From the NCBI GenBank assembly GCA_024641825.1, contig JAHECI010000006.1, forward strand, positions 1 through 32,472: a stretch of DNA of 32,472 nucleotides, written 5' to 3'. The translations under genes and the position numbers were made by a program. The first letter of the stretch is position 1; every line of letters starts with the position of its first letter. Under the pieces are notes generated by a model. It was not told the origin of the DNA, searched no databases, and saw only the letters and a program-made list of their open reading frames with translations. The DNA is from Desulfobacterales bacterium. Lineage in GTDB: Bacteria > Desulfobacterota > Desulfobacteria > Desulfobacterales > UBA11574. Of the stretch, positions 2,338-17,666 are shown in pieces.

Positions 2338-2808
2338 TCATGACGAAGTTTTTGCATCGGACGGCAGACCACTGTCCCGCGAGTGTCGTTTGAAACGCCT
2401 CAGATATTGAGCCAAGGCGCTTCTCTCTTCCTGACTGAATTGCCGCGCCAATTCAATGGTTGCATCTGCCAAACGCCGCTTCATGAGACTGCGCAGTTCG
2501 TGTATTTTTTCAATCTGAAGTCGGTAGGCAGCTTCATCAAATTCAGGTGCGGATAAAAGGTTCATGGCTTCTTTTCTTGCCTCTCGGAGCTGATGGTATG
2601 CATCCCGATTGTTCAGATGGACCCTTTGTACCGTTTCAAGAAACAACGCGCCCTTGTCCTTGGGCAATTTGGACGCAAATTCTTCCACGGACTTCCGAAC
2701 AAAGAATTCTTTATGAAAGCGATGGGACACATCGCCAATGACAACGCCGATAAGCAACACGTTGAGGAGAAGTGAACTGAAAATCAGAATTTTAATCTTT
2801 TTACTCAT
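2338..2808 (-). CDS. Periplasmic heavy-metal sensor-like protein (CnrX/Spy-type helical, Metal_resist-like)
   Basis: N-terminal signal/TM (ILIFSSLLLNVLLIGVVIG) followed by a helical periplasmic domain; start overlaps the upstream ORF (2805-2808); encoded with ECF sigma and membrane protein. Confidence 0.72.
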   Translation of the reverse strand: MSKKIKILIFSSLLLNVLLIGVVIGDVSHRFHKEFFVRKSVEEFASKLPKDKGALFLETVQRVHLNNRDAYHQLREARKEAMNLLSAPEFDEAAYRLQIEKIHELRSLMKRRLADATIELARQFSQEERSALAQYLRRFKRHSRDSGLPSDAKTSS

Positions 2809-3254
2809 AGTACATCTCCTTCATAATTTAGAAAATCTTCCAAGGAGGTTTGGTATTGTTCGACGGAAGCATTCCCCGACGGATTTGAAAATCCTATTGT
2901 AAATCCGATGATCAAAGTAAAAATGAGCGAAACCGAAACCGCCGCAAATGCACGCCTGGACAAACTGAATTCCCGAAGTACCTCCGAGAAGAACATGCCA
3001 AGCTTGCGTTGCGCTTCTTTCTTTTTAGGCAAAGCGGCTGCGATAATTCGATCTGCCAGGTCTCTGCTCGGTTCTTCATACTTCCGTGTTTTGAGAACCC
3101 CTTCAAAACGTTCCGCGTCTGCCACTAATTTCTGAAGTTCAGGGAAACGATCCGGCGCCTTCAGCCCTGACGATCTTATGTCTTTTGGCCATTTACGAAC
3201 ATCAGCGCCATACATCAGCAGATTTTCTTTGAACTGTTCAAAGTTGGTTGTCAT
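2805..3254 (-). CDS. Putative anti-sigma factor, single-pass membrane protein
   Basis: 149 aa, cytosolic N-terminus then one TM helix (RAFAAVSVSLIFTLIIGFTIGF); 4-bp overlap with ECF sigma gene. No zinc-binding HxxxCxxC motif seen. Confidence 0.7.
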   Translation of the reverse strand: MTTNFEQFKENLLMYGADVRKWPKDIRSSGLKAPDRFPELQKLVADAERFEGVLKTRKYEEPSRDLADRIIAAALPKKKEAQRKLGMFFSEVLREFSLSRRAFAAVSVSLIFTLIIGFTIGFSNPSGNASVEQYQTSLEDFLNYEGDVL

Positions 3255-3826
3255 CGTGAACCTCCGCCAAGATATTGTTTGACGTTGTGCTTCAATGTCG
3301 TTTTGGCACGCATAACGAGAGATTGCAGCGCTTTCACCTTCACACCAATGATCTGGGCCGCCTCACTGTTGCTTAACCCTTCATAAAAGCACAGGTTAAG
3401 CGCCAGCTGCTGTCGTTCCGGCAATTCGTGTATAAATCGTTCCAATACAGCCTGTTTTTGATGCACATCAAATAAGACGTCCGGCCCGGGATTTTCGTCT
3501 GGGAACTCTATGTCTTCGGGTAAGTTTATCAACTTTTTCTTCTTGCGAAGATCCAAACACAGGTTTATGACGACGCGATAAAACCAGGTGGTGAATTTGG
3601 CTCGTTTACCGGGATCCCAAAGATTCGGCCGGTTCCATAGTTTTAGAAACGCTTCCTGCACAATGTCCTCTGCATCGTCCTTGCTGAAAACAAGGCGGTA
3701 GGCAATACGATAGAATCGATTTGAGTGGCGATCTACAAGTGTCCCAAAGGCTTCATGACTTCCCTTTTGTATCTGGCAGATCAGGGACTCGTCATCCAGA
3801 TGCAAGAGTTTTTCGTCCAAATTCAC
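3251..3826 (-). CDS. RNA polymerase sigma factor, ECF subfamily
   Basis: Region 2 (RLVFSKDDAEDIVQEAFLKLWNRP) and region 4 (LPERQQLALNLCFYEGLSNSEAAQIIGVKVKALQSLVMRAKTTLK). Confidence 0.95.
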   Translation of the reverse strand: MNLDEKLLHLDDESLICQIQKGSHEAFGTLVDRHSNRFYRIAYRLVFSKDDAEDIVQEAFLKLWNRPNLWDPGKRAKFTTWFYRVVINLCLDLRKKKKLINLPEDIEFPDENPGPDVLFDVHQKQAVLERFIHELPERQQLALNLCFYEGLSNSEAAQIIGVKVKALQSLVMRAKTTLKHNVKQYLGGGSR

Positions 3827-4623
3827 TGATATCTGCCTTCCGCCATGGTCTGATGAAAAAGTATCTCTTTGTCTGCCAGCACCTCATCCGACAATTTCTG
3901 TCGTGGGACATCCGTAATTTTCATGAAATATTCGGGCAAGCATGCTTACATGTATTAATACGACCGAAAATCCAAAAGTCTTCGCTCTTTTTTTTAATTA
4001 TACCAAACCATCGGCTGTCGTGTCGACTTAACTTTAACTATTTGGTTCTGCTCCAATTTAGTTGGAGAAAAGGGGCCCAGGATTCATGGGTTTAGGCTTC
4101 AAGGGTCTGTTTTCTAATCAATTTATCAGAACTTTTAACACTTGCTAATACTATCTGTGTGTCCAATTCGCAAACAGAACCATAAAATTTGCTGTTATTC
4201 TATATATCTCTAAACAGAGTTCGCATGACTTTTGCCAGACTTTCAACACGCTGTTGTAATTTTTTAGCATTTTTATCCGCTTGTTTTGTGGCGGGTCACT
4301 CCACCCCCTTGCCCCTTTTAGACATCGAATCCTTGATCCCTTTGGGAACAAGATGGGGCCAGCAGCAGCGTGGAAATGAGCCCGTTGGTTAATCTAAAAA
4401 AAAGTTCGTGCCGCAAGTGTAGGACAGATTGTCTTATGACACACAATTGTATCATACAAACAGGTTCCACCGAATGGGCAATCAATTTTATCAAGCAATT
4501 TCATACGGTTTTGAAATAGATTTTTTTGGCACGGTTATTGCTTTTTTATCAGATAAGGTTTTATCCCCTCTGATAAAAATTGGCATTAATCATCCATCCA
4601 ACAAATTGATAAAGGAGGCTACC

Positions 4624-4938
4624 ATGGAAATTAAAGATTATTGTTCAAACGTGGATATGGAACTTACGGTGTGGAAAGCAAAAATTTTTGACGTGATACG
4701 TAAAGCCGATCAATTGGGATCCGGGGAACTGGAAAAAGTTCTTCCAAACATCCAAGATCTCAAGATGGTCATCACTGAATTGGAGGATAGAATTCATGGG
4801 CTCAGGACAGAATGTCCCATAGAGTGGACGCCCATAAGAAAAGAAATTGAGGGTGTCAAGGGCAACTTGACCAATACCTATGACGAAGTCATCGATTACA
4901 TCGGGGGACGCGCCGCACCCGTAGACGTACCGGGATAG
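4624..4938 (+). CDS. Small coiled-coil-like hypothetical protein (105 aa)
   Basis: ATG at 4624 preceded by AAAGGAGG (in frame with longer ORF 4429..4938); followed by a strong intrinsic terminator. MEIKDYCSNVDMELTVWKAKIFDVIRKADQLGSGELEKVL... Confidence 0.78.
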   Translation: MEIKDYCSNVDMELTVWKAKIFDVIRKADQLGSGELEKVLPNIQDLKMVITELEDRIHGLRTECPIEWTPIRKEIEGVKGNLTNTYDEVIDYIGGRAAPVDVPG

Positions 4939-4994
4939 GCTTGAATAACATCATCGTACCAGCGTCCTTAGGTCAAACCCCTCTCTTATTCACT

Positions 4995-5035
4995 GTCCGA
5001 TAACCTCTCTGTGAAAGGTTATCGGACTTTCTTTT
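4995..5035 (+). terminator. Rho-independent terminator
   Basis: Perfect stem GTCCGATAACCT ... AGGTTATCGGAC with short loop, followed by TTTCTTTT. Confidence 0.9.
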
Positions 5036-5248
5036 AAGCAGACGACCTCTTTGTTTAGATTGAACAGAAATACCCATAAAGCAAATCCGTGTGCCTAAAA
5101 AAACCTATTGATTGGATGGTCAACCTTTTTCTTTTAAACTTTGTCTTTTGATGTAAATAGGATATAGTGTTGATTTAACCTCATCCCATATGGGCTTTTT
5201 AGTCCTCATCGGCGTATCGGAAAACTCGGGAAGTTAGGAGGTGTTTCA

Positions 5249-5467
5249 ATGGAAACATGTAATCTGTCCGATTTTATGAAAGCGCTCACTCCCTGGCTGG
5301 ACGATGATTATATTCGTAAGGCCTACTTGGATGACAACGGACATTTTGTATTGTTGTTTACCGATGGCGTAAAAAATGTCTATCACATTGAAGATTGTGC
5401 AAAATCCAAATTAAAATCAATACTTGAAGACCTGAAAAAGAAAGGGGTTTTCGTCGAATCGACATAA
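5249..5467 (+). CDS. Small hypothetical protein (72 aa)
   Basis: ATG preceded by AGGAGG; coding-like composition: METCNLSDFMKALTPWLDDDYIRKAYLDDNGHFVLLFTDGVKNVYHIEDC... Confidence 0.72.
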   Translation: METCNLSDFMKALTPWLDDDYIRKAYLDDNGHFVLLFTDGVKNVYHIEDCAKSKLKSILEDLKKKGVFVEST

Positions 5468-5614
5468 CAAATTTGTTCGTGACCAGTCGTAATTCAAGAA
5501 CATATTCTAAAAACTCAACGAACACACAAACAATTCATGAATACGCCACTGAATCAGATCGATTTGGAGGCTGATTCCCCTGGTCCTCTGCTAATTTTGA
5601 CAGGAGGAAAATAA

Positions 5615-6862
5615 ATGCGAATTGCAGTCGTTGGTTCGGGCATTTCCGGGATGGTATCCGCATATCTGCTGAGTCAAGACCACGACATTGTTCTATATGA
5701 GGCCGATGACACCATCGGCGGACATACCCACACCATCGATGTATCCATCGAGGGCATTTCCTATCCGGTGGATACCGGTTTCATCGTATTCAACGAAAAG
5801 ACCTACCCGAATTTTATTAAATTGATGGGGTCGCTCGGGGTGGCCTGGCAACCGTCGAACATGAGTTTCAGCGTTCAATGCGATCAGACGGGGCTGGTTT
5901 TTTCCCCCAGCACCTTGAACGCTTTATTTGTTCAGCGAAAAAATCTTTTCCGTCCCTCATTTTACCGAATGCTTTGGGATGCGCTTCGGTTCCGGCGTGA
6001 AGCGTCGGAACTCATTCGATCCGATGATTACCGCATCACCCTTCAGTCCTATTTGGAACAAAAGAACTACAGCCATGCCTTCATTGAACATTTCATTATT
6101 CCCATGGGCGGAGCCATCTGGTCGGCGGATCCTGTTCGGTTCAGAAATTTTCCGGCACGATATCTGGTAGAATTTTTTTACAACCATGGTTTTCTGAACA
6201 TCCGTCATCAACCCCAATGGCGGGTCATCAAAGGGGGGTCGAGGGAGTATATCGGTCCTTTAACCCGGCCCTATAAAGACCGGATCCGTCTGAACTCGCC
6301 GGTTGCATCCATCAGACGATTCCCGGAAAATGTCGAAATCACCACAAAGGGAGGAGACAGCGCCACCTTTGATCAGGTGGTCATCGCCACCCACAGCGAC
6401 CAGGCGCTCCGGATGCTGGCGGATCCTTCGGAACTGGAAAGAGACGTTTTAGGCGCCATTCCTTACCAGGAAAACCTGGCCATTTTGCACACCGACACAT
6501 CGCTCCTCCCGCCCAAAAGAACGGCCTGGGCCAGTTGGAATTATCACATCCCCAGACAAGAAAAAGGGCGAGTTGCGCTGACCTATAATATGAATATCCT
6601 ACAAACCCTGAGGGCCACGGAAGCGCTTTGTGTCACCTTAAACATGCCGGAGAAGATCCACCCGGACCGTGTTATTCAGCGCATCATCTACCATCATCCG
6701 GTCTACGACCCGAACAGTTTAAGCGCGCGCCGAAAACAGGATGAAATCAACGGAAAAAATCGGACCTATTTCTGCGGCGCTTACTGGGGTTATGGGTTTC
6801 ATGAAGACGGCGTGAACAGTGCCTTGGCGGTTTGTAAACATTTTGGGAAAACATTGTCATGA
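5615..6862 (+). CDS. FAD/NAD(P)-binding amine-oxidase-like oxidoreductase (COG2907 type)
   Basis: Rossmann FAD motif MRIAVVGSGISGMVSAYLLSQDHDIVLYEADDTIGGHTHT; C-terminal FCGAYWGYGFHEDGVNSA; RBS AGGAGG; ATGA overlap with next gene. Confidence 0.95.
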   Translation: MRIAVVGSGISGMVSAYLLSQDHDIVLYEADDTIGGHTHTIDVSIEGISYPVDTGFIVFNEKTYPNFIKLMGSLGVAWQPSNMSFSVQCDQTGLVFSPSTLNALFVQRKNLFRPSFYRMLWDALRFRREASELIRSDDYRITLQSYLEQKNYSHAFIEHFIIPMGGAIWSADPVRFRNFPARYLVEFFYNHGFLNIRHQPQWRVIKGGSREYIGPLTRPYKDRIRLNSPVASIRRFPENVEITTKGGDSATFDQVVIATHSDQALRMLADPSELERDVLGAIPYQENLAILHTDTSLLPPKRTAWASWNYHIPRQEKGRVALTYNMNILQTLRATEALCVTLNMPEKIHPDRVIQRIIYHHPVYDPNSLSARRKQDEINGKNRTYFCGAYWGYGFHEDGVNSALAVCKHFGKTLS

Positions 6863-7644
6863 CAAAAAGCGCGATATATGAAGGCGCTGTAAGGCATCGG
6901 CGATATAGACCCCGGCCGAACATATTTCAATACCGGCTCTTTTTTATGTTTCTCGATCTGGAGGAACTCCCCACACTTTTCGATATTCACCCCCTGTGGT
7001 CATACCAACGACGGAATGTTGCATATTTCCGCCGCAAAGATCATTTCGGCCATCCTTCCGTGCCCATGGATATTGCTGTCCGGGATCTTGTTCAAACGCA
7101 CCTTGGAAACCGACCGTCCGGGCCGATTCGTCTGCTGACCCACTTAAGATATTTTGGATATTGCTTTAATCCGGCCAGTTTTTATTACTGCTACGACGCT
7201 TCTGATACCAGGGTCGAGACCATTGTGGTCGAAATCCACAATACCCCCTGGGGGGAGCACCATTGTTATGTATTCGGCGATACCCATAATGAACACCCCG
7301 TTGATCATTGGCGTCGATACCGTTTCAACAAAATTTTTCATGTGTCACCGTTTATTGATATGGATATACAGTACGACTGGCGATTTCGTGTGCCTGGAGA
7401 CATAATTCGCGTTCATATGATCGATATCGAAAAAGGTAAAAAGCTGTTCGATGCCAGTCTGACGCTGAAAAGGAGGCCCATCAGCCATAAACAATTAACC
7501 CGCGTGCTGATGAAATACCCGTTAATGACGATGAAAGTGACCACAATGATCTATTTTCAGGCATTGCGTTTGCTGCTGAAAAACACCCCATTTTTTACGC
7601 ATCCCAAAAAGAAATCACTGCCATATAGAGGAAATGATCCATGA
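6859..7644 (+). CDS. DUF1365 domain-containing protein
   Basis: IYEGAVRHRRYRPRPNIFQYRLFFMFLDLEEL, YFGYCFNPASFYYCYD, EIHNTPWGEHHCYVF: recognisable DUF1365 family motifs; 4-bp overlaps with both neighbours. Confidence 0.95.
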   Translation: MTKSAIYEGAVRHRRYRPRPNIFQYRLFFMFLDLEELPTLFDIHPLWSYQRRNVAYFRRKDHFGHPSVPMDIAVRDLVQTHLGNRPSGPIRLLTHLRYFGYCFNPASFYYCYDASDTRVETIVVEIHNTPWGEHHCYVFGDTHNEHPVDHWRRYRFNKIFHVSPFIDMDIQYDWRFRVPGDIIRVHMIDIEKGKKLFDASLTLKRRPISHKQLTRVLMKYPLMTMKVTTMIYFQALRLLLKNTPFFTHPKKKSLPYRGNDP

Positions 7645-8921
7645 CGGAAACATTCATGCCATATAAAGTATCTGCCCTGGAATGTCTTCGGGAAACGTTT
7701 ATCGACAGACTGTCCCGTAGACTTTTTTTCGCTTTGATGAAAGATTTTAAGATAGGAAAACTTACCCTGATCGAAAAAAATCAGCAGGTCCGATTCGGTC
7801 AATCATCAAAGAGGAGTTCTTTGCGGGCAACCATTTATGTGCATCATCCACGATTTTATACAAGCACCGTGTTTGGCGGCAGCATCGGTTCTGCTGAAGC
7901 CTATATGGCCGGGCTATGGTCAACATCCCATCTGACCAATGTCATACGCCTGGTGATTTTGAATCAGAAAATGATGGAAAAAATGGACAAAGGCTGGTCT
8001 TGGCTCTCTGATCCTGTTCATAATTTGTATCACTGGTTTCGACGCAATACCTTGAAAGGTAGCAAAGAAAATATCGTTGCCCATTACGATCTGGGAAACG
8101 ATTTTTACAGGCTTTTTCTGGATGAAACATTGACCTACTCATGCGGCATTTTTGAGCATGAAAACAGTACCCTGGAAACGGCTTCCATAGCAAAATACGA
8201 TCGAATCTGCCGCAAACTCCAGCTTCATCCCGAAGACCATGTCATGGAAATCGGCGGTGGATGGGGCGGTTTTTCCATACATGCTGCAAAAAACTATGGA
8301 TGTCGTGTGACCACCACAACCATTTCCGATGAACAGTATGCTTTGGCCGAAAAACGCATTTCAGCATCCGGTTTGTCCCATCGAATCAGATTGCTTCGCA
8401 AGGATTATCGACATCTTGCCGGAAAATTTGACAAACTGGTCTCCATCGAAATGATCGAAGCGGTGGGCCATCAGTATCTGAATACTTTTTTTCAAATCTG
8501 CAGCCGGTTGCTCAAGTCGAACGGCATGATGCTTCTTCAGGCCATCACTATTGTCGATCAGGTGTTTGACGCGCATAAACGCTCGGTCGATTTCACTAAG
8601 CGGTATATCTTTCCGGGCAGCTGTATCCCCTCAATCCATGCCATTATGAATTCCATCGCCCGCAAGACAGATCTGAAGCTATTTCATCTCGAGGATATCA
8701 CACCCCACTATGTCCGAACACTTGCCGAATGGCGAAAACGATTTTTCGATCACATTGATGACGTTCGTGAAATGGGATTTTCAGATACTTTTATTCGAAT
8801 GTGGGAATACTATCTTTGCTATTGCGAGGGGGGCTTTGCGGAAAGATATATCGGGGATGTTCAAATGCTGTTGGCCAAACCCATGTGCAGACGGGAACCG
8901 TTGCTTCCCCCTCTGGCCTGA
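7641..8921 (+). CDS. Cyclopropane-fatty-acyl-phospholipid synthase-family SAM methyltransferase
   Basis: HYDLGNDFYRLFLDETLTYSCGIFE, VMEIGGGWGGFSIHAA, EMIEAVGHQYLNTFF, DFTKRYIFPGSCIPS, HYVRTLAEWRKRF; Cfa-family motifs. Confidence 0.95.
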   Translation: MTETFMPYKVSALECLRETFIDRLSRRLFFALMKDFKIGKLTLIEKNQQVRFGQSSKRSSLRATIYVHHPRFYTSTVFGGSIGSAEAYMAGLWSTSHLTNVIRLVILNQKMMEKMDKGWSWLSDPVHNLYHWFRRNTLKGSKENIVAHYDLGNDFYRLFLDETLTYSCGIFEHENSTLETASIAKYDRICRKLQLHPEDHVMEIGGGWGGFSIHAAKNYGCRVTTTTISDEQYALAEKRISASGLSHRIRLLRKDYRHLAGKFDKLVSIEMIEAVGHQYLNTFFQICSRLLKSNGMMLLQAITIVDQVFDAHKRSVDFTKRYIFPGSCIPSIHAIMNSIARKTDLKLFHLEDITPHYVRTLAEWRKRFFDHIDDVREMGFSDTFIRMWEYYLCYCEGGFAERYIGDVQMLLAKPMCRREPLLPPLA

Positions 8922-8993
8922 TCAACACAACTGGCCTTCCCACATATAAACCTGAATTTTGCACAAGGAAGCACACCCCGTCATCACGCATCC

Positions 8994-9788
8994 TTATTTT
9001 TTCTTTGCTTTCGGAAACCAGGGAATAAACGCATTGGTACGCTGAATATATTCTTTGTAACCCGGTCGATGGGTTACAATGGTTTTTTCGGTTAAAGGAA
9101 TCCCTGTCATTTTCAGCAGCACCACAGTAATGATCAGAGGACTCAAAACGGTCCACCAGCTGTTTGGTGTTGAAAATGCAATGAGAAAAATCCCCCACCA
9201 CATGAGACATTCACCAAAATAATTGGGATGTCGGGTATAGCCCCACAATCCCCGATCCATGACTTTTCCCTTATTGGCAGGGTTGGATTTAAAAGACGCC
9301 AACTGCCAATCACCAACAGCTTCAAATATAAAACCCACCACCCAAAGGATTAAACCGCACAGATCCAGCCAGGTGATCATTTCCGGTGTCTTAGATGCCA
9401 CGCCGTACTGAAGTGCAATGGAAATGGCCCACAGAAATATAGACTGGAGCAGAAACACTTTAAAAAGGCTCACGATCCAGAAATGTTTGCCACTCTTTTC
9501 ACGCCAGGAACCATATCTGGGATCCTCCCCCTTTCCCCAGTTGCGCCGCGTCAGATAAATACTAAGCCTTAAACCCCAAAACGTTACCAACATTGCAATT
9601 AACAGCTTTCGTCCAAAAAAACCATCCGTTAAGAAAAAAGTTGTCCAGGCTATCATGACAAATCCCAATCCCCACAAGCTATCTACCACCGTGACGTTTT
9701 TAACAACAAGGCTGAGAAGCCATCCGATAAGCATCATCAAAATAACAGCAGCCAAATTGAGGCTGAATATAAAAATTAGATGTTCCAT
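8994..9788 (-). CDS. DUF1295 domain-containing membrane protein (steroid 5-alpha-reductase-like)
   Basis: Multi-TM; KGKVMDRGLWGYTRHPNYFGECLMWWGIFLIA motif. Confidence 0.95.
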   Translation of the reverse strand: MEHLIFIFSLNLAAVILMMLIGWLLSLVVKNVTVVDSLWGLGFVMIAWTTFFLTDGFFGRKLLIAMLVTFWGLRLSIYLTRRNWGKGEDPRYGSWREKSGKHFWIVSLFKVFLLQSIFLWAISIALQYGVASKTPEMITWLDLCGLILWVVGFIFEAVGDWQLASFKSNPANKGKVMDRGLWGYTRHPNYFGECLMWWGIFLIAFSTPNSWWTVLSPLIITVVLLKMTGIPLTEKTIVTHRPGYKEYIQRTNAFIPWFPKAKKK

Positions 9789-9855
9789 GTTATTTCTCCA
9801 ACTGTTTCTTAGGTCTCAACGTTCTAATTTGTAAAGTAGGAATCGTTATCGAATT

Positions 9856-11265
9856 CTATATTCCGGCCGTCGAAGACATTGGTTTCATGGGATCGATCGC
9901 AAAGATTCCCTTGTTTCGATCATCAATGGCTTTTCGTATGTTTTCATGAACCTTGCTGCTGATCGGATAAGCCAGCGCGATTAAAATGGCAATCAAGTTA
10001 CAAACGGACGGCACCAGTGCATAAAGCGTTCTCAAAGCTAATTTTACTTGTTCAGACTGTTCCACATTGGGCGTGTAGCCTGCTGCACCAAGAATTGAAA
10101 GTCCGGCCCCGACACCAACGGCCGCTGCGAGCTTTTTTGAAATCGACCACAAACCGATATATTGTCCTTCTCGTCTCTCACCCGTTAACCATTCATCATA
10201 GTCGATGACGTCGGCCTGTATGGCGGATGGAATCGCCAAGGTGGCACCGAACCCGATCCCAGATAAAAAAACCAGTACCCCGTAGATCAATTCATCTCCC
10301 GGTCCAAGAAAAAAAACACCGAAAAAAGCGCCCGTATTTACAGCCATGGACGTCAACCATGCCGGTTTTTTGCCGATCTTTCGTGATATCAAAATCCATC
10401 CAGGAAGGAAAATAATACCGGTTACAAAGTATAGAAGAAGGAAAAAGTCTGCCAAATTTGATTGTAGTACATACTCTACGTAAAAAAGAATCAACGTGGC
10501 CGGTAAATTATTCCCAATGGCACTGATGGTGTATGCAATGAGGAGAATGACAAACGGTCGGTTTTGACCCGTCTGCCGTATTCCCTTAATGAACCCTACG
10601 GGACGGTTAACACTTTGGGGAGGTAACTCCTTAATTGATAACACACACCACCATGAAAAACCGATAACGAAGGGCGCATAAATTATGGCAATCCAGAAAA
10701 ATTTGGCCCGTTCTCCCTGAGCGGTATTTGAGAGATTAAACAGCCATTCCACCAGAGCCGGCGAACTTGCAGCAGCAAGTGTTCCGGCAATCAAAAAACC
10801 GTCCCTTACGCCAAATAAAGAAATCCGTTCATTATAGTCAAAGGTAATTTCAGGGCCCAAAGATTCATAAGGCACACTGACCAAAGTCCAGAAAAAAAAC
10901 AAAGCAAAAATACTTACACCGAACCATAGGGCAGAAAAATATGCAGACGTTTCTGGCGGGTTAAATAAAAGGTACATTGACAGTGCAACAAAGAACGATC
11001 CACCTGCGATAAACGGCCGTCTTCTACCGAACGGGGTCTTGATTCGATCGGAAATGAAGCCTATGGCGGGATCCGTTATGGCATCGAAAATTCGGACACT
11101 TAGGAGGACATAGCCCATCACCATAACGTTGACCCCGATAACATCCGTATAAAATTTTGGTATGTAAACATAAATCGGTATGCCGACTACTGCTAACGCA
11201 TAAGCCGGTGCAGCATAGGCAATCTTTTTATATAACGGAACGGATTTTCGGGCTGCAGCTTTCAT
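9856..11265 (-). CDS. MFS transporter, glycoside-pentoside-hexuronide (GPH)-like
   Basis: 12-TM pattern; DAITDPAIGFISDRIKTPFGRRRPFIAGG motif. Confidence 0.95.
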   Translation of the reverse strand: MKAAARKSVPLYKKIAYAAPAYALAVVGIPIYVYIPKFYTDVIGVNVMVMGYVLLSVRIFDAITDPAIGFISDRIKTPFGRRRPFIAGGSFFVALSMYLLFNPPETSAYFSALWFGVSIFALFFFWTLVSVPYESLGPEITFDYNERISLFGVRDGFLIAGTLAAASSPALVEWLFNLSNTAQGERAKFFWIAIIYAPFVIGFSWWCVLSIKELPPQSVNRPVGFIKGIRQTGQNRPFVILLIAYTISAIGNNLPATLILFYVEYVLQSNLADFFLLLYFVTGIIFLPGWILISRKIGKKPAWLTSMAVNTGAFFGVFFLGPGDELIYGVLVFLSGIGFGATLAIPSAIQADVIDYDEWLTGERREGQYIGLWSISKKLAAAVGVGAGLSILGAAGYTPNVEQSEQVKLALRTLYALVPSVCNLIAILIALAYPISSKVHENIRKAIDDRNKGIFAIDPMKPMSSTAGI

Positions 11266-11849
11266 TTTAACCCCAACAATTGCTTTTTAAACGGTTCGTT
11301 CATGGGGAATTTCCCCAACCACATCGAAAAGAGCGCAGACGCAAAATCAGCACCCTTGATAATGCCCTTGGTTTTTCCGTTTAATGCCAGCTCTGTGCCC
11401 CTTCCCGGGATATATGTCAATGAATACCGGTCTCCAGGTTGGACATCTTCATAAAGTGAGTTGTGATAATCGATTTGTGGTCGAATTTTTTCCAAGGTTA
11501 GTGCATCCGTGTTCTTTGCAATCACTTTGTTTGTAGAAATCCCGAAATCTTCCCCTTTTAAGGCATGGAAATACTCAACCTCCAAGCGTTTGGATTTGTC
11601 AGAAAGAACATTCTCTATGGAAATCCCTTCTTCTAAGTAGAGCGCACCGACATAGGCTTTGATAAAACCGAGATGCCGAAGCAGTCCCGCGCCCTGAATC
11701 TTCAAACGAATCCCTTCTGTTTCGTAGCTGTTTTCAAAACGAATCCCCTCGATCTCTGCTCCATTGACATTGGGTGTTACACCTACCATTAATATCACTA
11801 CAAATATTGCGATAAGATAAGATATATTTTTCATGAGTCCATTCCTCAA
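11262..11849 (-). CDS. Chalcone isomerase-like family protein, exported
   Basis: Signal peptide followed by GAGLLRHLGFIKAYVGALYLEEG and MWLGKFPMNEPFKKQLLG; 4-bp overlap with MFS gene. Confidence 0.9.
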   Translation of the reverse strand: MRNGLMKNISYLIAIFVVILMVGVTPNVNGAEIEGIRFENSYETEGIRLKIQGAGLLRHLGFIKAYVGALYLEEGISIENVLSDKSKRLEVEYFHALKGEDFGISTNKVIAKNTDALTLEKIRPQIDYHNSLYEDVQPGDRYSLTYIPGRGTELALNGKTKGIIKGADFASALFSMWLGKFPMNEPFKKQLLGLK

Positions 11850-11958
11850 GTGTTTTTTGCTTTTAATGATTCATTAGCTGTTAAGATTTAAAAAATTCTT
11901 AATATAAAGTTATTCACGTTTAAGGAACATTCAATGGGGAAAAAGTAGGGGTATGGTA

Positions 11959-11973
11959 ATAGGGTATACCTAT
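11959..11973. promoter_or_regulatory. Candidate operator-like palindrome ATAGG-GTATA-CCTAT
   Basis: Perfect 5-bp arms in the AT-rich divergent intergenic region between the chalcone-isomerase-like gene and DUF2177 gene; a related TACCCTATAC occurs at 13313-13322 upstream of the PAS-LuxR gene. Confidence 0.35.
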
Positions 11974-12299
11974 CATTTTTTTAACTTAATAACGACCCAA
12001 GTTTAACACCCCAATACGGCCCAAAAGCCTTTAAAAATTTTTTCGGCCTGATATGCTTTATTGACGGTTATAAAAATAAAAAGGCTTGCAACTTGAGTAA
12101 CAAACTATTGCTTAACAATTTTTTCTAACTTAAAGTACTTAATCAACACACATTGATTATAAACATAAAAATGCTTATAGTGCTTTATAAATAGTCATTA
12201 AGAGTGTGACCATACACAGAAGTTTCTGAATTGTTAAAAAATTTGAAGTTATAGTAAGACAAATGAGTTCCGCTCCGGGTAGGTCATGAGGGTGACAGA

Positions 12300-12707
12300 A
12301 TGAATATTATCTTCTACTTAAAACTTTATGCATTGACTGTACCGCTATTTTTTGCCATTGACATTCTCTGGCTCGGATTTTTTGCAAAAAAGTTTTATCG
12401 AAACAACCTTGGTTTTATACTGAGTCCGGATGTAAACTGGTCGGCGGCAATCAGCTTTTATTTGCTTTATATTGTAGGTATTCTTATTTTTGCCGTTGTG
12501 CCAGCAATTGAAAAAGAATCATTGGGCAAGGCGATCTTGTGGGGTTGTTTGTACGGTTTTTTTACTTACGCAACATACGATTTGACAAATATGGCCACCA
12601 TAAAGAATTGGCCGTTAAAGGTTGTGATGGTCGATATTTTGTGGGGTGTTTTTCTCTGTTCCATGGTCGCTTCGATAAGTTTTTTGATTGCGAAATGGCT
12701 CTCCTGA
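12300..12707 (+). CDS. DUF2177 family membrane protein
   Basis: Multi-TM, AIDILWLGFFAKKFYRNNLG and GCLYGFFTYATYDLTNMATIKNWPLKVVMVDILWG motifs. Confidence 0.93.
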   Translation: MNIIFYLKLYALTVPLFFAIDILWLGFFAKKFYRNNLGFILSPDVNWSAAISFYLLYIVGILIFAVVPAIEKESLGKAILWGCLYGFFTYATYDLTNMATIKNWPLKVVMVDILWGVFLCSMVASISFLIAKWLS

Positions 12708-12724
12708 AAGGTAATGATAAAAAA

Positions 12725-13186
12725 ATGAAAAAAATACTCAAGGTTTCCATTGGGCCTTTGATGCTTATTACGATCTTATACGGATGTTCCGGGAACCCTA
12801 CGGAACATAACAATAGCGATTCCTCAGGGTTACTGGATTGCCCGGATACCCCAAATTGCGTATCGTCATTAGCAAAAAATCCAAAATACCGAGTTGAACC
12901 CTTTAATTTAAACAAAGATCCTAAAACAAGCTGGGACATTGTTAAAAAAACGGTTGAGCTACTGCCCGGAACAAAAGTTGTTTCAGAAGACAACAGCGAT
13001 ATTCATGCCGAATGCAAAAGCATGATTTTTCGATTTGTTGATGATCTCACACTCCATTTAACCCCTTCCAAAGGTATTATTCACATTCGTTCAGCCTCTA
13101 GAATCGGCTATTCAGACCTCGGTGTTAACCGTCGTCGTGTTGAAACCTTGAGAAAAAAACTCAAGCAAAATGGCATTATCGAATAG
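12725..13186 (+). CDS. DUF1499 domain-containing lipoprotein
   Basis: Start at 12725 gives lipoprotein signal (MKKILKVSIGPLMLITILYGCSGN) then DCPDTPNCVSS motif; the longer ORF from 12539 overlaps DUF2177 out of frame. Confidence 0.9.
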   Translation: MKKILKVSIGPLMLITILYGCSGNPTEHNNSDSSGLLDCPDTPNCVSSLAKNPKYRVEPFNLNKDPKTSWDIVKKTVELLPGTKVVSEDNSDIHAECKSMIFRFVDDLTLHLTPSKGIIHIRSASRIGYSDLGVNRRRVETLRKKLKQNGIIE

Positions 13187-13375
13187 CCTCTTCATCATTT
13201 AATTGTCCGGAGACAATTTCGCGTAAGGTTTCCGATATGCTGCACTTGTAAGTGTTCACGGGGTGAGTTCTCCCGCTTCATGTTCCACTTTACAATGACC
13301 TTTAAACTAGAGTACCCTATACAATACAATCAAAAAGACAGCATATTTTGATTGCACGGATCAGGGAGTACACTC

Positions 13376-14278
13376 ATGAAAACCCAGCATAAGGAAGCAA
13401 AGTCCCATATTGAACCCTTAAGTTTTTCGGAAGAACTGGCTAGGGCGGTCATTAATTCGCTCTCTGCACACATCGCCATTCTTGACAAAAACGGCGTAAT
13501 CCTTGAAACCAATCGCGCATGGAATGCCTACTCGGTTAAAAACGGCATGCCGGAAAACTTTGACTACAGAGGAATCAACTACCTAGAGGTCTGCAATGCC
13601 GCCAAGGGAGAGGATGCGTCAGATGCCCACAATATCGCAGAAGGTATTCGTAAGGTTATTCAAGGCCATACCCCGGAATTTCTGTTTGATTATCCCTGCC
13701 ATTCCAAGGACAGCAGACACTGGTACTATATGCGAGCCATCCGAATGTCTGATACCAAACCCGTCCGGGTGATCATCAGTCATGAAGATATAACGGCATT
13801 GAAACTGGTTGAAGAAGCGTTAAGAGAAAGCCGTGAAGAACTCGAAGAACAGAAACAAAGCCTCGAGGAAGCCAATATTGCGCTGAAAGTGCTGATCAAA
13901 CATCGGGAAAACGACAAACTGGAACTTGAAAAAAATGTATTGACCAATGTCAAGGAGTTGGTTTTGCCGTATGTTGAAAAGTTAAAGGGAGTTCCATTAA
14001 AACCCAGAAATAAGACACTCGTTGAAATCATTGATAATCACCTAAAAGATATTATTTCTCCGCTCCTTCAAAAATTTTCAAATGCCCAAATTATTCTGAC
14101 CCCCCAGGAAATAAAGATGGTCGCCTTGATCAAAGACGGAAAGAGCAGCAAGGAAATTGCAGACATCCTGAACATATCCGAAACCACCGTCAATTTTCAC
14201 CGAAAAAACCTGCGAAAAAAGCTCGGTCTGAAAAACAGGCCGATGAATTTGAGGTCCTATTTAATCTCCATATCATAG
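13376..14278 (+). CDS. PAS-domain LuxR-family transcriptional regulator
   Basis: ATG at 13376 with AGGGAG upstream; PAS-like N-terminus (NSLSAHIAILDKNGVILETNRAW), coiled coil, C-terminal HTH (LTPQEIKMVALIKDGKSSKEIADILNISETTVNFHRKNLRKKLGL). Confidence 0.93.
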   Translation: MKTQHKEAKSHIEPLSFSEELARAVINSLSAHIAILDKNGVILETNRAWNAYSVKNGMPENFDYRGINYLEVCNAAKGEDASDAHNIAEGIRKVIQGHTPEFLFDYPCHSKDSRHWYYMRAIRMSDTKPVRVIISHEDITALKLVEEALRESREELEEQKQSLEEANIALKVLIKHRENDKLELEKNVLTNVKELVLPYVEKLKGVPLKPRNKTLVEIIDNHLKDIISPLLQKFSNAQIILTPQEIKMVALIKDGKSSKEIADILNISETTVNFHRKNLRKKLGLKNRPMNLRSYLISIS

Positions 14279-15752: not shown

Positions 15753-15865
15753 ATTTTGGAAACAGCCAAGAACCCACCTGAATGGGGTGCCCGCCAATGA
15801 AGGAAATTTGTCCAATGCCCGACAATTAATGAGCGCCTCCGTAACCGTTGTATCGAAAATTAGTT

Positions 15866-16927
15866 ATGTTTGAAAACATTTCAGTACGTGCCGGTAGCAA
15901 AGCCATAAGGATACTCCGGGACGAAGGATTGAATCTATCAAGGGTAAAGGTTATCGCAGGCGCTTCCGGTGCCGCCAAATTTCTTGTTTTAACCGGGATC
16001 GACAGGGTATTGCTGTCTTCCTTCAAACATAGGACAGACCCCCTTTATCTTATTGGCACTTCAATTGGAGCCTTTCGCATGGCTGCCTACTGCCAGAGAA
16101 ACCCGGTCGATGCCCTTGATAAGCTCGAAAGGGAATATATTTTACAGCACTATGATTCAAGACCCACGCGAAAAGAAATTACAGAAGAGTCCTGGAAAAT
16201 TATTCATGCCTATATAGAGGATGATGAAATAGAATTCATTATCAACCATCCTTTCATGAAAATTTGTTTTCTATCCAATAAATGCAAAGGACTTATTAAA
16301 AGTGAAAACCCATGGGTCCAAGGGCTCGGTATTGCACTTGCTTCAGGCGTAAACCGGTTGAGCAGGAACAGGCTTGGGTATTTCTTTGAAAGAGCGTTGT
16401 TCTGTGCCCCAAAGGAAAGACCGCCCTTTGCCGCCATGAATCAATTCCCTTTGAGTATCTATCGTCTTACCCATTCGAATTTCAAGACCGCATTGTTGTC
16501 TTCCGGGTCGATTCCAATGGCAATGGAGGGAATTTCAAATATCGACGGCGTGCCGGGTGTTTTTCGCGATGGCGGCATACTTGATTACCATCTGGACATA
16601 CCGTTTTTGCCCAATGGAAATGGTCTTGTCCTATATCCCCATTTTTATGACCAGATCACACCCGGATGGTTCGACAAGTCCTTAAATCGCAAGCCGGATA
16701 AAAAAAATATGGAAAGTGTTGTGCTCGTTGCACCCTCAAATAGATTCGTTGACAATCTTCCCTTAGGCAAAATCCCCGATAGAAAAGATTTTAAGACGTT
16801 CTTTGGGAAAGACAAAGAACGGATAGAATACTGGAAAAAGGTCGTTGAAGAAAACAAAAAATTGGGGGACGAATTCTTCGAAGCCATCGAATCCGGAAGA
16901 ATAAGGGAGATCGCAAAACCGATATAA
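15866..16927 (+). CDS. Patatin-like phospholipase family protein
   Basis: Oxyanion-like AGASGAAKF, nucleophile elbow IGTSIGAF (GxSxG), and RDGGILDYH (DG dyad). ATG at 15866 preferred over TTG at 15848. Confidence 0.75.
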   Translation: MFENISVRAGSKAIRILRDEGLNLSRVKVIAGASGAAKFLVLTGIDRVLLSSFKHRTDPLYLIGTSIGAFRMAAYCQRNPVDALDKLEREYILQHYDSRPTRKEITEESWKIIHAYIEDDEIEFIINHPFMKICFLSNKCKGLIKSENPWVQGLGIALASGVNRLSRNRLGYFFERALFCAPKERPPFAAMNQFPLSIYRLTHSNFKTALLSSGSIPMAMEGISNIDGVPGVFRDGGILDYHLDIPFLPNGNGLVLYPHFYDQITPGWFDKSLNRKPDKKNMESVVLVAPSNRFVDNLPLGKIPDRKDFKTFFGKDKERIEYWKKVVEENKKLGDEFFEAIESGRIREIAKPI

Positions 16928-17132
16928 GACGGTGTGTCGAGGCTTAGCGGCAAGGGGAATTGCCCGGCACGAAGCGTGATCAGAGGCCCAAAACATCGCG
17001 CCCTTTCGGCATACCCATGGACCGGCCTTTAGCCCCATGGGTATATGCTTGACAACCACACCTAAGATTTGTACAGCATTAACACAAGCCCGTTGTCATG
17101 ATCGGCATTCGGTTTTAATCCAAGGAGGTATT

Positions 17133-17666
17133 GTGAGACTATTATGGGCGGCATTTCTGGCAATACCCATGACGCTCTTTTTCGGGTCCTGTTCGGTGAT
17201 TTCTCAACAGATCCGAACAGAAGCCACACCGACGATTCACTTCAAAACCCTTCTTCTGGAAAAAGATAACTACAGGGGAAAGACCGTGATCCTGGGCGGG
17301 TACATCCTGGAAACGCAGAACTCGGCGGACAAATCGTTGATTAAAGTCTTGCAAGTCCCCCTGGGATTCGGAGAAAAACCCAAATCAAAAGACCTTTCAG
17401 AGGGAAGATTCATGGTCTCCCAAAAGGGTTTCTTGGACCCGGAAATCTACAAAAAAGACCGTAAAATTACGGTGGCCGGCGCCATCGTCGGCGCGGTGGT
17501 GGAGAAAATTGACGACTCCTTCCAGCCCTATCTCAAGATTGAAAGTCGTGAAATATACCTTTGGCCCGAGGAGGCCTACTATTATCCCCCACCATACTAT
17601 GATCCATGGTTTTATCCATATCCCTACTATGGGTACCGGCATCGTCATTACCCCTATTACTGGTAA
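17133..17666 (+). CDS. Slp family outer-membrane lipoprotein with Tyr/Pro-rich C-terminal tail
   Basis: GTG start at 17133 after AAGGAGG; lipobox FFGSCS; Slp-like KGKTVILGGYILE...; tail EEAYYYPPPYYDPWFYPYPYYGYRHRHYPYYW. Confidence 0.82.
   Translation: MRLLWAAFLAIPMTLFFGSCSVISQQIRTEATPTIHFKTLLLEKDNYRGKTVILGGYILETQNSADKSLIKVLQVPLGFGEKPKSKDLSEGRFMVSQKGFLDPEIYKKDRKITVAGAIVGAVVEKIDDSFQPYLKIESREIYLWPEEAYYYPPPYYDPWFYPYPYYGYRHRHYPYYW

Follow-up and report, generated by a model that had tools for sequence, protein, structure and literature searches.

A predicted furan fatty acid operon in Desulfobacterales, with DUF1295 and DUF2177 as candidate pathway components

The stretch of DNA analysed here, the first 32,472 nucleotides of contig JAHECI010000006.1 from a Desulfobacterales bacterium (GenBank assembly GCA_024641825.1; hereafter the window), carries at positions 5615-8921 three overlapping genes for a flavin adenine dinucleotide (FAD) amine-oxidase-family protein, a DUF1365 protein and a CMAS-family methyltransferase, next to several further membrane and envelope genes. 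Which lipid would such a trio make, and would a bacterium of this kind have the oxygen to make it? A first-pass annotation had left DUF1365 unassigned, counted several families of the cluster as being of unknown function, and argued that its presence in a likely anaerobe pointed away from oxidant defence and towards a novel branched or cyclopropane lipid. Our analysis of genes and genomes leads to a different answer: the trio is most likely a ufaD-ufaO-ufaM operon, with a furan fatty acid (FuFA) as its predicted product when O2 is present.

The trio and the known furan fatty acid pathway

In the pathway described by Lemke et al. (2020, PMC7380195), UfaM, UfaD (the FAD protein) and UfaO (DUF1365, demonstrated for RSP1090/RPA2570) produce a monomethyl FuFA from the cis-vaccenate chains of phospholipids. 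The ring oxygen comes from O2, the UfaD product is also O2-dependent, and RPA2571, RPA2570 and RPA2569 (ufaD, ufaO and ufaM) of Rhodopseudomonas palustris are sufficient for FuFA (PMC7380195). The trio of the window matches the latter genes in families and in order:

5615..6862, + strand: ufaD-like, putative FAD amine-oxidase-family fatty acyl desaturase (PF01593, 99 bits)
6859..7644, + strand: ufaO-like, DUF1365, putative O2-using furan-forming enzyme (PF07103, 263 bits)
7641..8921, + strand: ufaM-like, putative fatty acyl methylase (CMAS) dependent on S-adenosylmethionine (SAM) (PF02353, 285 bits)

Because 4-base ATGA stop/start overlaps form both junctions (ufaD/ufaO and ufaO/ufaM), translational coupling of the trio is likely. 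Another genome of the genus (G002, locus L014) has the block from 4395 to 13196 in collinear form at 82-94% DNA identity, and its FAD, DUF1365 and CMAS proteins are 95%, 91% and 96% identical to those of the window; on the strength of this collinearity, we regard the block as a stable part of the chromosome rather than an artefact of binning. A set of 80 loci selected by UfaO similarity alone was fetched from GTDB genomes. UfaD, UfaO and UfaM occur together in all 55 of those longer than 15 kb, each time with UfaD next to UfaO, and the UfaO loci with the trio span Desulfobacterota, Gamma- and Betaproteobacteria, Acidobacteriota, Gemmatimonadota, Nitrospirota and other groups. UfaD of the window is 50% identical to its Pseudomonas syringae homologue, which is listed as the RSP_1091 orthologue (PMC5507510).

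For the methyltransferase, UfaM and Cfa were compared in a maximum-likelihood tree of 59 CMAS proteins. The window protein (7641-8921; METHYLTRANSFERASE) lies inside a clade of UfaO-adjacent proteins with a support of 99 in the Shimodaira-Hasegawa-like approximate likelihood ratio test (SH-aLRT), and this clade includes the protein of the P. syringae locus that is listed as the RSP_2144 orthologue (PMC5507510). A separate clade, outside which the window protein falls, holds E. coli Cfa and the genome's other CMAS (contig C4, locus L108); two long-branched outgroup rows make the deep order of the tree uncertain and leave this separation unaffected. All 38 rows of the UfaM clade, the window protein included, have glutamine at the position of E. 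coli His266 and glutamate at that of Gly236, while the Cfa rows have His266 in 11 of 12 cases and Gly236 in 12 of 12. H266Q alone was discarded as a UfaM marker, the genome's own Cfa having glutamine there as well.

For UfaO, the invariant residues among 45 homologues include H13, N104, N128, K158 and H161. A sequence search of the PDB returned no relative, and the confident AlphaFold2 (AF2) model, with a predicted local distance difference test score (pLDDT) of 93.6, matched nothing in the PDB at E <= 0.001; the best matches were lipocalin/nitrobindin-type barrels with low template modelling (TM) scores, a resemblance too weak for a cofactor assignment from structure, which we dropped.

From this evidence we infer the activities, product and timing of the trio as follows. 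By homology, UfaM would methylate a cis-monounsaturated phospholipid acyl chain with SAM, a step that would not need O2; UfaD would add a trans double bond conjugated to the first, with O2 probably accepting the electrons; and UfaO would insert an O2-derived oxygen, closing the furan ring. The methylated precursor could form under anoxia and then become FuFA on the arrival of O2, and the resulting membrane lipid would scavenge radicals or singlet oxygen. Neither the window nor the genome, which is 87% complete, yielded a FufM-like (coclaurine N-methyltransferase-like) CMAS, a provisional absence, and because of it monomethyl FuFA is the best prediction for the product.

Much of what the first-pass annotation had said about the genes themselves stands. 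Every gene of the trio and its neighbourhood is present where it had been placed, with scores far above the Pfam cut-offs, and the relation to UfaD and UfaM that it had proposed was right. It had also named two outcomes that would speak against its proposal, a methyltransferase within canonical Cfa and a lack of co-conservation; the tree and the 55 long loci show neither. Its account was incomplete for DUF1365, which is UfaO, so that the set makes up a complete known pathway (PMC7380195). There is then no need to invoke a novel branched or cyclopropane lipid; phylogeny and signature residues rule it out as the leading interpretation, and we consider it unlikely.

Oxygen in the host and locus variants in its order

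The nearest named homologues are from Desulfobacterales and deltaproteobacterial metagenome-assembled genomes and from Desulfosarcina alkanivorans PL12, which has the trio (L080). A dsrA gene above the curated cut-off is present in 30 of 40 sampled genomes; the host's own genome has a fragmentary match only, consistent with its broken assembly, and the host, from an order made up mostly of sulfate reducers, is probably one itself. The same genome encodes a CcoN-type haem-copper oxidase (cbb3-type) with an adjacent CcoO-like cytochrome c.

Co-occurrence was counted in 193 genomes of the host's order, with classification partly by hand; nitric oxide reductase-like long proteins and fragments were removed by hand from the COX1 set. 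UfaO is found in 54 of these genomes and an O2-reductase-type COX1 protein in 76. O2 reductases are present in 41/54 genomes with UfaO versus 35/139 without it (odds ratio 9.4, p = 1e-10) and, at genus level, in 27/35 versus 22/73 (odds ratio 7.8, p = 4e-6). Thirteen UfaO genomes have no O2-reductase match, so the link is not absolute. Within the host's family, a rubrerythrin-like gene is directly upstream of ufaD in L015, L016, L017 and L022, and L015, L017 and L022 also have an AhpC/TSA-like gene slightly farther upstream. As a class, FuFAs in anaerobes are not unprecedented, given an earlier report from Dehalococcoides (White et al. 2005, as cited in PMC3971608).

An O2-requiring protective lipid pathway is predicted for more than a quarter of the genomes sampled from the order, alongside O2 reductases. 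Its frequency and its tracking of these enzymes suggest that bacteria commonly regarded as strict anaerobes use a lipid against oxygen stress.

The locus takes different forms within the order. Ten genomes from other families have UfaO and UfaM joined in a single open frame (L139, L140, L142, L144, L145, L147, L148, L149, L150 and L154), and in the two frames checked, of 667 and 708 residues and one of them in a single-contig genome, Pfam finds both DUF1365 and CMAS. We found no description of this arrangement. UfaD-UfaO fusion was ruled out as an explanation for the long UfaO frames of these ten genomes, and G060 and G107, also considered, have merely long overlapping frames. G024 and G033 carry a proteobacterial-type cluster with a short-chain dehydrogenase/reductase (SDR), and their UfaM is separate from that of the window in the tree. 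With the separate trio, the fusions and the SDR-containing cluster, there are at least three versions of the locus in the order.

Other genes are found near ufa genes in relatives of the host. An FA_desaturase gene is present in L023, L024, L025, L028, L030, L031 and L080 (Desulfobacterota) and probably represents a further O2-using lipid enzyme in supposed anaerobes. A Desulfobacterales relative has a lipocalin-type protein with CrtC and Lipocalin_9 domains by Pfam (L030:4798-5961), and a homologue of this CrtC-domain protein is near the ufa genes of a second one (L024:2334-3479).

Neighbouring genes and regulation

Around the trio, the window contains the following features:

5249..5467, + strand: 72-residue open reading frame upstream of ufaD (86-92% identical in G002, G009, G012 and G020)
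8994..9788, - strand: DUF1295 membrane protein, candidate FuFA-pathway member (PF06966, 263 bits)
9856..11265, - strand: MFS_2/GPH-family symporter (TIGR00792, 246 bits, cut-off 231)
11262..11834, - strand: exported chalcone-isomerase-like protein, Chalcone_3 (PF16036, 120 bits; hydrophobic N-terminus)
12300..12707, + strand: DUF2177 small membrane protein, candidate FuFA-pathway member (PF09945, 163 bits)
12725..13186, + strand: DUF1499 lipoprotein (PF07386, 122 bits; lipobox LYGC)
13352..14278, + strand: PAS-LuxR transcription regulator, candidate regulator of the locus (PF08448 and PF00196)

The Chalcone_3 start was revised from 11849 to what is probably the correct ATG at 11834, and for DUF1499 the ATG at 12725, favoured by the lipobox over a GTG at 12539 inside DUF2177, is most likely. 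A Pfam search gave no family for the 72-residue frame, and a PDB sequence search nothing significant for Chalcone_3, whose homologues adjoin ufa genes in L019, L020, L021, L024, L080 and L153.

Two of these neighbours are linked to UfaO across the order, more closely than the O2 reductases are. DUF2177 is present in 36/54 genomes with UfaO versus 6/139 without (odds ratio 44) and full-length DUF1295 in 37/54 versus 4/139 (odds ratio 73); at genus level the counts are 28/35 versus 4/73 and 27/35 versus 3/73, respectively. A cupin (ChrR-like) control has no link to UfaO (odds ratio 1.1, p 0.8). The association of DUF2177 is not merely local, because it is on the UfaO contig in only 18 of the 36 genomes. 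In loci from different phyla, DUF1295 goes together with a second CMAS, about 343 residues long, which it adjoins in many relatives; both are present in 25 of the 31 long loci that hold either. The best PDB match of this second CMAS is coclaurine N-methyltransferase, and R. palustris FufM shares 26% identity with UfaM (PMC7380195) and 38% with AT4G33110 (PMC10940516), values that fit a FufM-like assignment of the second CMAS.

The DUF1295 model (pLDDT 96) has a predicted fold that resembles the bacterial steroid 5-alpha-reductase PbSRD5A (Foldseek TM 0.58/0.60, probability 1.00, E 0.07, with nothing at E <= 0.001) and also sterol C14 reductase, and Pfam reports a Steroid_dh match at 3e-9. A further line of evidence comes from a green alga. 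According to an eLife 2014 paper (PMC4067076), the genes that depend on SAK1 for singlet-oxygen induction in Chlamydomonas include CFA1, CFA2, DUF1365, DUF2177 and DUF1295, with CFA2 labelled coclaurine N-methyltransferase in another table. These families are those grouped in the bacterial clusters; in the open-licence literature we found no publication linking the two.

DUF1295 and DUF2177 are predicted to work in the lipid pathway of the trio, and co-occurrence together with the Chlamydomonas co-induction makes both testable candidates for FuFA metabolism. A bolder proposal is that they are unrecognised core members of this metabolism in bacteria and green algae, in one version with DUF1295 regenerating the furan lipid by enone reduction; we consider it tentative and rather unlikely. 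Singlet oxygen or radicals would oxidise furan lipids to conjugated enediones, DUF1295, with its predicted steroid-reductase-like fold, would reduce the enone double bond to give a 1,4-diketone, and this could close again to the furan, so that the lipid antioxidant would be regenerated and not used once. Such recycling is speculation based on chemistry.

With regard to regulation, the first-pass annotation had missed a unit with a sigma factor, an anti-sigma-like and a Metal_resist gene, listed here with the efflux gene next to it:

614-2101: TolC-type outer membrane efflux gene, adjoining the unit of the extracytoplasmic function (ECF) sigma factor
2338-2808, - strand: Metal_resist periplasmic protein gene
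2805-3254, - strand: anti-sigma-like gene, downstream of the ECF gene
3251-3826, - strand: ECF sigma factor, no ChrR partner

The ECF/anti-sigma/Metal_resist unit (2338-3826) is not in the G002 locus; it was ruled out as regulator of the operon and is probably a separate envelope or metal-stress unit. Searches for ChrR in the host genome gave weak single-cupin matches only, a provisional result with the genome 87% complete, and the RpoE/ChrR-type promoter TGATC-N-CGTA has no match in the window, where another sigma factor could use another motif. With neither ChrR nor its motif, RpoE-ChrR control was set aside. The PAS-LuxR protein is the likeliest candidate for regulator in its place, because five other loci (L019, L023, L026, L076 and L143) have homologues of 60-69% identity upstream of, and divergent from, their ufa genes.

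Here the first-pass annotation was right that an adjacent ECF-ChrR pair is absent and that a PAS-LuxR gene is present instead, and its anaerobe-type host agrees with dsrA in most sampled relatives. Its step from such a host to a function other than oxidant defence is weakened by the cbb3-type oxidase, the O2-reductase co-occurrence and the rubrerythrin-like and AhpC/TSA-like genes upstream of ufaD.

Beyond the cluster, a patatin-like protein gene (15848-16927 in the window) and a Slp lipoprotein gene (17037-17666) come directly after it in G002 (L014); the PAS-LuxR gene and a glycosyltransferase-9 gene are in between in the window only.

Alternative explanations and known systems

How firmly can the FuFA assignment be held? 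A number of points weigh against it. In this lineage it derives from gene content and order, phylogeny, signature residues, co-occurrence and predicted folds, and in anoxic sediment the O2-dependent steps may take place only rarely. The identity of UfaM runs via the P. syringae locus (PMC5507510), without the RSP2144 and RPA2569 sequences in the tree; genomes or genera enter the co-occurrence tests as independent units, with incomplete correction for phylogeny and genome size; and at 87% completeness and 6% contamination of the host genome, the absences of FufM and ChrR are provisional. For the wider cluster, deletion of the MFS gene RSP1089 left the FuFA of Rhodobacter sphaeroides unchanged (PMC7380195), so a neighbouring gene does not have to encode an enzyme of the pathway.

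The operon might instead mainly make a methyl-branched unsaturated acid or a conjugated methyl diene for anoxic membrane properties, with the furan step seldom or never reached. This would suit a probable sulfate reducer and an O2-independent methylation step, and R. sphaeroides without O2 forms neither diene nor furan (PMC7380195). However, ufaD and ufaO are intact, apparently translationally coupled and 91-95% identical in the genus, which would be unexpected if they were unused; moreover, UfaO co-occurs with O2 reductases and the fusions keep it tied to UfaM, and we regard this explanation as improbable. Still less probable is a methyltransferase that makes a cyclopropane or other novel ring, with the FAD protein and DUF1365 modifying the product differently. 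Membership of the CMAS family would allow this, and an N-terminal domain resembling FAD oxidases is found in plant cyclopropane synthases, but the tree places the window protein with UfaM and outside the E. coli-type Cfa clade that holds the genome's second CMAS, and the clade-wide Q and E substitutions and the complete UfaD-UfaO-UfaM set also speak against it.

A further possibility is compatible with FuFA synthesis by the trio: DUF1295, MFS, Chalcone_3, DUF2177 and DUF1499 could form a lipid or envelope module of their own that just happens to adjoin it. The accessory genes are indeed on separate transcription units, and R. sphaeroides can make FuFA without RSP1087-1089 (PMC7380195). Against this, the presence of DUF2177 and DUF1295 tracks UfaO even off-contig, the module is also found beside UfaO-UfaM fusion genes in another lineage (L140 and L145), and the Chlamydomonas singlet-oxygen regulon contains both families. 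We consider a separate module possible, if somewhat doubtful, and regard the locus as a variant of the known FuFA pathway with two new candidate components, DUF1295 and DUF2177.

Among known systems, RPA2571-2570-2569 of R. palustris is alike in its three families and their order; the window differs in its sulfate-reducer-type host, in that no FufM was found, and in its extra DUF1295 and DUF2177 neighbours. With the R. sphaeroides genes RSP1091-1087 and RSP2144 of the RpoE-ChrR regulon, the window shares UfaD, UfaO, UfaM and a GPH-family symporter, the family of its MFS gene and of RSP_1089, the GPH symporter of that regulon (PMC7074977). In contrast to R. sphaeroides, ufaM is inside the operon, RpoE-ChrR and its motif are missing, the cluster has no SDR, and a PAS-LuxR gene is present instead. 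PSPTO_1121-1115 of P. syringae, part of an oxidative-stress regulon (PMC5507510), also has neighbouring UfaD, UfaO and UfaM, but with photolyase and SDR neighbours and RpoE/ChrR-type control. The Chlamydomonas SAK1 singlet-oxygen regulon (PMC4067076) co-induces the same families; it is a co-regulated eukaryotic set and not a gene cluster, and is not interpreted as FuFA synthesis in the passages of the paper covered here. Finally, AtUFAMD1, AtUFAO1 and AtFUFM1 of Arabidopsis are homologues of UfaM, UfaD, UfaO and FufM on lipid droplets (PMC10940516). There UfaM and UfaD are united in one protein, whereas the window has three separate proteins and some relatives of its host have UfaO fused to UfaM.

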